Shown: positions 6,500-8,365 of the stretch, in pieces
Numbering within the stretch: the first letter of the stretch is position 1
Layout: the number at the start of each line of letters is the position of its first letter
Assembly (NCBI GenBank): GCA_031279555.1
Contig: JAITIK010000050.1
Span: 1 to 32,837 of the forward strand
Length of the DNA: 32,837 nucleotides
From: Treponema sp.
Lineage (GTDB): Bacteria > Spirochaetota > Spirochaetia > Treponematales > Breznakiellaceae
Reading direction: 5' to 3'
The notes under the pieces: model-generated
Told to the model about the DNA's origin: nothing
Databases searched by the model: none
Seen by the model: the letters and a program-made list of their open reading frames with translations, nothing else
Translations under genes and position numbers: made by a program

Positions 6500-7778
6500 T
6501 CAGTCGACGTAGACTATGGTTCCCAGGCCTTTCAAATGCTCCGGCGTCCCGTCGCCGAATCTGATCGGGAAGTAGCTCCCCATGCCTACGCCCCCGCCGG
6601 TGGCGTTTCCCGCTCCGTCCAACTAGGGCTGGTCGTCCGGGGTGTTATACAGCCCGTTCTTGATGGTCCAGGTCCTTCCTCCAAAAGACTTCGGGGCGCC
6701 AAACGCCCGGTATTTCATTTCAAACCGGATCAACCCGTCCACATGCTTTTGCGGGAGAGGGATGAACGTCTGGGTCTCGCTGTTGTAGTTGAGACCAGCC
6801 AATACAGGCGTAGCTAGTGTATACGTATGCCGATTATCATCTAAGACAGAGAAAGTGGCAAGCAGCTTAGTTGTGAAGTCCATAGGGCTAAACCAATCGT
6901 AGATATACCGGGGCTGCAAGCGGATCACCGGCTCACTGTCAAAGGTGATCTTCGTATTAGCGCCGAAGGGGAGGGCGCCCGTCGTCATGGCGTCAGCCAG
7001 AATTAACGGCGTAAATCCGTCAAGCTCAAGACATACGCAAAATATAAAATAGAGACTCGCGACAGCCTCAGCCTTCAGGTGAATATACCGGTGTTCTATG
7101 GAGCCAGAGGCTGCGGCCGGCGGCGGCCCGTTACCATCCATCGCATACATATCCATAACCTGTATGGAGAAGTCACCAGCATCCCCGGCTAGTACTGCTG
7201 GCTGTACTTGCAAGTCTTGCAACGCAAGATTCGTGTCCCACTGGGGCGGGAAAGCCGCGACCTCTATCGCAATCACGTTCGCTTTGCCGGCTTCAATATT
7301 CACGGGTCCCTTGCCGGCGTCCTTATCATCGGCGCTGTTGTTCCTTCCTAAATACCCGCCTCCCACAAGGATTCGGCCAATCCCGGCCAGGAGCAGAACC
7401 TCGTAAGGCCCGCCGACGGGAACCGCCACGCTTATATACCCTTGGCCGGCGGTCCCCTCGCCCCGGTAGTACAGGTCGTTAGCCGGGCTAGGGTCGCCAA
7501 TCTTCCTGAACACCGCCTCGTAGGAATCCACGAAATGCTCCACGGCGTCAGGGCTTATGGACCTGGCGGCGCTTTGGCTTTTCTGGGGCAGCTTCACCTT
7601 CACCGCGACCACATCCCCGTTGTTATAGCCGATTTCAGGCGCTACGTTTTCAGACGCTTCGGGGGGGGGGGGGGGGATTGCCGAGCCAGCCGTCGCCGCA
7701 GGAGACCAAGGCCGCCAGAGCCGCCGCCGCGACAAGGACGATGTGAAAACGCCCCGCCTTCGCTTCAATGTGTTGCAT
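6500..7778 (-). CDS. Treponemal lipoprotein, out of frame at a poly-C/G tract (phase-variable or pseudogene)
   Basis: The start at 7778 is fixed by AAGGAG (plus-strand CTCCTT 7785-7790) and by a lipoprotein signal: M-Q-H-I-E-A-K-A-G-R-F, then a hydrophobic H-region, then L-V-S-C with the lipid Cys at residue 27. Codons 35 onward are a run of 16 C (minus strand), which puts the upstream part out of frame: as read it stops at TGA three codons after the run. Fifteen C would join it to the long frame A-S-E-N-V-A-P-E-I-G-Y-N, which continues through S-I-S-P-D-A-V-E-H-F-V-D-S-Y-E-A-V-F-R and Y-E-V-L-L-L-A-G-I-G-R, a pattern I associate with large secreted protein families of treponemes. TAG at 6625-6623 interrupts; the same frame then runs 40 more codons (G-G-G-V-G-M-G-S-Y...) to TGA at 6502-6500. 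Function unknown; probably surface-exposed. Confidence 0.65.
7661..7676. repeat. Poly-G tract of 16, probable phase-variation switch
   Basis: Sixteen consecutive G on the plus strand (C on the coding strand) lie just behind the signal peptide and lipobox of the minus-strand lipoprotein gene. Lengths of 12, 15 or 18 restore one continuous frame; 16 gives an early stop, so this sequence represents an OFF state. Homopolymers of this length are prone to slipped-strand mispairing, and poly-G tracts are known variation devices in T. pallidum. Confidence 0.75.
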
Positions 7779-7892
7779 AACACGCTCCTTAAAAAAAACA
7801 GTCTCTCTCCGCAAGAAGAGGGTTTTCGCCCGGCGGACCCAAACCTAGGGATCGCCTGGCGTCCGCGCCTAACGCATAGGGCGGAATTCTTA

Positions 7893-7927
7893 TATAGCAT
7901 AGTATAGCATAGAATGTATGAATGCAA
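7893..7927 (-). promoter_or_regulatory. Possible lipoprotein promoter over a tandem 10-bp repeat
   Basis: On the plus strand TATAGCATAG occurs twice in tandem (7893-7902, 7903-7912). On the minus strand these copies form the -10 region: TTGCAT (7927-7922) is followed by TATACT at 15 nt or TACTAT at 17 nt. A change in copy number would reposition the -10 box relative to the -35 box. The leader would be about 115 nt. The promoter is a weak match and unproven. Confidence 0.35.
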
Positions 7928-8365
7928 GCCAGTTTCTATCGAAAATTTGTATAAATTTTTACGAGGGGCTTTGGCGGGGCGCGTCCGGCGGGGCGCGGCG
8001 GAGCGGTTAGCCTTTAGGCGCGGGCTTGCCGCCGGGCTGATTGCCCGGCTTGCCCTGCAAAGGTTCCGCTTCTTCCCATCCCGCTATTCCCACGGCGGCG
8101 GCGCCCACGCCCGCGGACATTGATACCCGCGCCGCGTATGGCTCTCAAAGTTCCAGAGATGTATCGCCGCGTTCCTATCACGGTCATGCTGAGTCCCGCG
8201 CCGCGGACACGCCCGACGCGAAGCGCTTGCAAGGCTGTTGGGGGCGATCCTCCTCGCCCCCAGGTTTCCACAGCAAGCGCGGCCATCAGGTTTGCGGCCC
8301 CTGCCGGCCGCAAGGGAAAGGGCCGCGCCCTCTTCCCGTTACCGGCGCCTTCCTTTCATTTGTTG
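7928..8365. other. GC-rich intergenic stretch without a recognisable gene
   Basis: Several overlapping frames are open on both strands only because stop codons are rare at this GC content. None has a ribosome-binding site, consistent codon use or a familiar motif. The minus-strand frame at 8014-8313 (M-T-V-I-G-T-R-R-Y-I-S-G-T-L) may be part of a dispersed repeat rather than a protein; I cannot show this from one copy. Confidence 0.4.

Follow-up and report, generated by a model that had tools for sequence, protein, structure and literature searches.

The locus examined here raises the question of whether a run of sixteen G residues, lying directly behind the export signal of a predicted lipoprotein gene, acts as an ON/OFF switch set by its length. 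The run is found in the window, the whole stretch of 32,837 nucleotides that was analysed, which comes from a Treponema sp. genome of 2.9 Mb in 207 contigs (denoted G000). The organism is probably an uncultured insect-gut relative of Treponema, judging by its likely, Breznakiellaceae-like family.

A C tract between a lipoprotein signal and its mature domain

The original prediction placed sixteen G residues at 7661-7676, and on re-reading both length and position proved exact; the gene itself, being on the minus strand, reads the tract as poly-C (poly-Pro) and not as poly-G. It is the sole G/C run of at least seven residues inside the window. The features of the locus are as follows.

7923-7928, minus strand: -35-like CTTGCA, 16 nt from TATACT
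7901-7906, minus strand: probable -10 box TATACT (conservation in four tract-bearing members)
7791-7820, minus strand: leader hairpin (7805-7820), then a T run abutting the ribosome-binding site; possible attenuator (terminator scan)
7785-7790, minus strand: ribosome-binding site AAGGAG (the same in aligned family members, with or without tract)
7677-7778, minus strand: start codon (7776-7778), signal peptide, lipobox LVSC and tether GDGWLGN (translation, coding score and homology to tract-less lipoproteins)
7698-7709, minus strand: lipobox LVSC, with the Cys codon at 7698-7700 (translation)
7661-7676, minus strand: C16 tract in the coding strand (G16 on the plus strand), the proposed length switch (direct reading)
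7650-7652, minus strand: TGA closing a 42-aa product at length 16 (translation per tract length)
6623-7660, minus strand: mature domain, 345 codons and a TAG at 6623-6625 (coding score and identity to family members)

The ribosome-binding site before the tract, the lipoprotein signal ending in LVSC and the long downstream frame, all of which had been claimed, were each found. The N-terminus through the lipobox reads MQHIEAKAGRFHIVLVAAAALAALVSC and has the positively charged n-region, hydrophobic core and lipobox with Cys that characterize bacterial lipoproteins; the tract begins seven codons past the lipobox Cys. The mature frame opens at 7660, out of register with the signal frame at length 16. 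When the tract was varied in silico from 8 to 20 C and each version translated, the signal frame and the 345-codon frame fused only at multiples of three (9, 12, 15 and 18) and at none of the lengths between, in agreement with the joining foreseen at 12, 15 and 18. At length 16 translation ends at 42 aa, with RSV as the three residues past the prolines; the immediate stop foreseen for this length was therefore borne out, and the assembled length is the OFF state. Dicodon scores, trained on 273 long frames of the same genome, were +17.2 for the signal frame (-19.1 and -25.6 for the other two frames) and +157 for the mature frame (-230 and -290), and the switch of coding frame by codon usage falls exactly at the tract.

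The mature domain gave no sequence match in Pfam, NCBIfam or PDB. An AlphaFold model of the product was of low confidence (pLDDT 49.6), and a Foldseek search with this model gave no match below 1e-3; to go by the model, the domain is probably beta-rich.

Upstream of the gene, the -10 assignment of TATACT rests on conservation, since a consensus promoter scan of the window did not list this hexamer; in a tract-bearing relative from genome G006 (G006:C250), the spacing between TATACT and TTGACA supports the assignment. The tract lies in the coding region, some 225 nt past the probable -10 box. A switch acting through promoter spacing was ruled out by this position, and the tract is not placed at or upstream of the transcription start, as a promoter poly-G tract of the T. 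pallidum type would be. The hairpin and U run directly 5' of the ribosome-binding site are also present in G006:C250, in paralogues on contigs C46 and C8 and in the tract-less L164, and their arrangement suggests that they possibly form an attenuator. Terminator-like hairpins with a U run stand at this place in L163, L145, L064 and L164, with differing stem sequences and with a tract or none.

Family members with and without the tract

Continuous homologues that have no tract occur in the window's genome and in two others. In L164 (JAISOX010000073.1), MKRGESKSRYFFSIIHTGLMLALAVLGACDGG continues directly into the mature domain, and L166 gives the same continuous reading until the contig end interrupts it; in G000 itself, two tract-less paralogues (C9:7454 and C154) likewise keep a continuous frame. 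In a DNA alignment of L164 with tract-bearing members, the C run forms an insertion within the tether, with the ribosome-binding site and start conserved; the run adjoins GAAGCG in the window, and L164 has GAAACG at the corresponding place. Because one frame runs from signal and lipobox through the mature domain in the tract-less homologues, the comparison demonstrates, at the level of sequence, that the signal half and the mature half are parts of one split gene.

The mature domain of the window gene is 44-55% identical to family members, and relatives carry tracts at the same place, a check that the original prediction had proposed. Paralogues and one orthologue have tracts of 13-15 at this position: in the window's genome C14 on contig C46, C14 on contig C8 and both C13 and C15 on contig C9, and in genome G006 C15 in C250 (55% identical), C14 in C170 and C14 in C178. 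The lengths of 13, 14, 15 and 16 at the shared site compare loci and species, not strains. By frame, the window gene, C46 and the three G006 genes are OFF, and C9:9130 is ON, the single in-frame case among the tract-bearing family members; contig C8 breaks off at the tract, leaving a state that is not scorable. Direct reading of these genes establishes the anatomy, the frame logic and the differences between loci in tract length and state.

On contig C9 the 5' end of a paralogue is duplicated in tandem (L065:5930-6250, with C9:8907 and C9:9130), and each copy has a tract (C13 and C15); the first copy meets a stop, and the second reads on in frame into the domain. The C46 paralogue contains a second tract, G11, within its mature domain (L079:2299, that is, C46:2299), which is also out of frame.

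A lipoprotein signal with a ribosome-binding site stands shortly before 7 of the 94 tracts of G000, where 0.36 would be expected from random positions. This count is a per-tract test, used instead of a degenerate lipobox-plus-tract pattern over 60 genomes, which was set aside because overlapping matches inflate its counts and the control counts were uneven. The remaining two cases, beyond five from the window's family (two of these being one tandem duplication), are a cadherin-like lipoprotein (C86; PF12733), ON with G15 behind its lipobox, and a sugar-binding lipoprotein (C177; PF13407), OFF with G17. As five cases share one family, the count represents three independent families and not seven independent events. 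An unrelated lipoprotein (MKKRIIWPAILMAGLLVLGLAGC) of genome G209 has a C16 tract 25 residues past its Cys (L248:1978-1993; G209:C1, ~3,010,980), and its signal part is out of frame with a 665-codon continuation. Together, the continuous tract-less homologues, the same-site tracts and the shared placement elsewhere strongly support the lipoprotein ON/OFF anatomy that had been proposed.

G/C tracts across the genome and its relatives

G000 has 94 places at which a non-G residue is followed by at least 10 G, and 95 G/C tracts of at least 10 were located once contig-end cases were included. In 732 kb of this genome, consisting of stretches picked for their tracts, G/C runs drop geometrically from 2880 at length 4 to 583 at 5, 115 at 6, 13 at 7 and 2 at 8, and rise again to 20 at length 14, 41 at 15 and 12 at 16. 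Since the shorter runs fall off in this manner, the 16-mer is far beyond chance. Tract lengths in G000 peak at 14-16 with a mode of 15, runs of 7-9 being scarce, and 62 of the 69 tracts lying 200 nt or more from a contig end measure 14-16, all such lengths from short-read assemblies being possibly off by one. Tracts within 200 nt of contig ends number 26 of 95 (expected, 2.7), an excess that fits either tracts of mixed length in the reads or plain homopolymer difficulty. Scrambled or inverted joins of tract flanks were seen at the contig ends L070, L090, L092, L103, L133 and L172, and a G54 run at the contig end in L131; these probably arose at tracts as artefacts of assembly or of two-colour sequencing.

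Places with at least 10 G number 36-186 per genome in all 12 genomes of the genus, 0-157 in other genera of the family and at most 15 in the order's other families. In a phylum sample of 197 genomes, with a threshold of at least 12 G, G000 had 85 and the runner-up 27. The modal tract length was 11 in G008 and 15 in G003 (samples of about 20 tracts), a difference between species that speaks against an assembler-imposed ceiling on length. Tracts of 12-21, and a few longer ones, also occur in G209 (4,059,867 bases), a closed genome from this family; very long runs in it are C61 at L239:1960 and G40 at L245:2046.

MutS1 is full length in G000 (794.8 bits) and present in 12 of the 12 genus genomes, and a mutator lineage through loss of mutS was ruled out by the full-length protein. 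The idea that the tract travels with a dispersed repeat or mobile element was rejected as well, as the flanks form only small clusters and those of most tracts are unrelated. The tracts of G000 are a probable genome-wide phasome. Further tract genes in G000 encode a UDP-galactopyranose mutase, a hybrid histidine kinase, a YidC-like protein and a glycerophosphotransferase-like protein, and tracts (e.g. L061-L134) lie in and near genes for such products.

A separate group of eight loci (L074:1270, L108:6030, L102:8107, L071:390, L062:5934, L063:584, L122:6078 and L089:6017) combines a leader of about 17 codons, a C tract and then, in one frame, a conserved stretch like YLKxxSYTxxNNHYTSKPxG; small frames of this type occur in many copies in G000.

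Proposed slippage, rival explanations and known systems

The best explanation of the locus, and in our judgement a highly probable one, is translational phase variation of a lipoprotein by strand slippage, the tract being a contingency locus. The product would consist of a signal peptide, the lipobox Cys, a short tether, a poly-Pro stretch encoded by the C tract and a mature domain of about 345 residues. Slipped-strand mispairing during replication would lengthen or shorten the tract by a single base or several. Whenever the length is divisible by three, the full lipoprotein would be made, changes of three merely altering the flexible tether or linker, and any other length would bring a stop a few codons behind the export signal, with no domain made. 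Because this stop comes directly behind signal and tether, such lengths would be complete OFF states. We infer that tract length changes within the population, and the sequence predicts that the product is lipidated and perhaps surface exposed, being compatible with a surface as well as a periplasmic location. The benefit may be bet-hedging, with phages, gut protists and recognition by the host as examples of possible threats.

A frozen frameshift, in which one chance expansion left this strain with a pseudogene that does not switch reversibly, seems to us unlikely. It would account for the window gene and most of its tract-bearing relatives being out of frame as assembled, and for the fragmentary look of certain family copies, but both halves retain coding codon usage, the same site carries tracts of differing lengths at several loci with one in frame, and the tracts form a distinct length class genome-wide. 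The miscounting of homopolymers by short-read assemblies, the enrichment of tracts at contig ends, some of them tangle-like, and a G54 run that looks technical would suit an assembly or sequencing error, the true length being fixed in frame (e.g. 15) and the protein made constitutively. To this we give very little weight, as the window tract is internal to a contig of 32.8 kb and has normal flanks, modal length varies by species (11 or 15) and long tracts are found in a closed genome too; even a true 15-mer would be expected to slip.

Long homopolymers are generally known to cause transcriptional slippage in other bacteria, and slippage of RNA polymerase or ribosome might give some full-length lipoprotein at every length here, with DNA length setting the level rather than a clean ON/OFF state. 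Such a leaky switch is compatible with the main explanation, and we assign it a similarly slight chance. At length 16 the downstream frame runs open through the tract back to TTG 7927 (434 aa) and stands so in the list of open reading frames. That it is a real protein that is not exported is scarcely credible, however: the 5' extension scores as strongly non-coding (-31.8) and begins within the promoter region conserved among tract-bearing members, and the tract-less homologues start at ATG with a lipoprotein signal.

As for phase variation by slippage, the homopolymer ON/OFF mechanism is already known (pilC, hpuA); the protein family and the scale, with about 70 to 95 similar tracts in the genome, appear new or unreported. 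HpuA of Neisseria is a lipoprotein, and the window gene resembles hpuA in the translational ON/OFF control of a probable lipoprotein through a homopolymer in the reading frame. The two differ in sequence and organism, which are unrelated, and in tract length, hpuA tracts being shorter (8-10) in the strains listed. In hpuA, a poly-G tract lies in the reading frame of this haemoglobin receptor component (PMC5320596; PMC3786947). Neisseria pilC, alongside which hpuA is listed, has the textbook poly-G tract near its 5' end, which frameshifts the product (PMC5320596). Both pilC and the window gene have a homopolymeric G/C tract near the start of an exported-protein gene, with one third of lengths giving the full product; unlike pilC, the window gene encodes an unrelated protein and carries poly-C, placed behind a lipobox and longer (16) as assembled.

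The T. pallidum poly-G loci tprE, G, J, L and tp0126 act mainly in promoters, and tprL tracts of 7-11 vary within isolates (PMC7864442). These are likewise spirochete poly-G tracts tied to envelope protein genes, whereas the window tract, unlike promoter tracts of about 7-11, is in coding sequence away from the promoter. Neisseria phasomes comprise up to 54, 47 and 82 loci per genome (PMC5953494), and N. meningitidis has 115 variable genes (PMC5084427); the tract number of G000 is therefore high but has parallels. Both kinds of genome carry numerous hypermutable tracts, prominently in surface genes; unlike those of Neisseria, the tracts found here are G/C homopolymers of near-uniform length, and their bearer is probably a symbiont of the insect gut. 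A search of an open-access library found comparable tracts reported neither for termite-gut treponemes nor for other non-pathogenic ones.

Standard gene calling at length 16 would likely give the window gene a wrong N-terminus, hiding its lipoprotein nature, and such genes may therefore be mis-annotated in spirochete assemblies. Poly-G switching has been studied mostly in vertebrate pathogens and commensals, and the same design appears here at genome scale, with a comparable tract-bearing lipoprotein in a closed genome of the same family. It may be, at a little short of an even chance, that the homopolymer phasome of this genus ranks among the largest known, with dozens to nearly 200 poly-G tracts per genome that stay close to a length typical of the species (about 11 in one, 15 in others) although MutS is intact, and that switch lipoproteins, surface-sugar enzymes and sensors in a symbiont of an insect host. 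If that reading is true, then, the insect host being without antibody-based immunity, selection would come from phages, gut protists or changes of niche.
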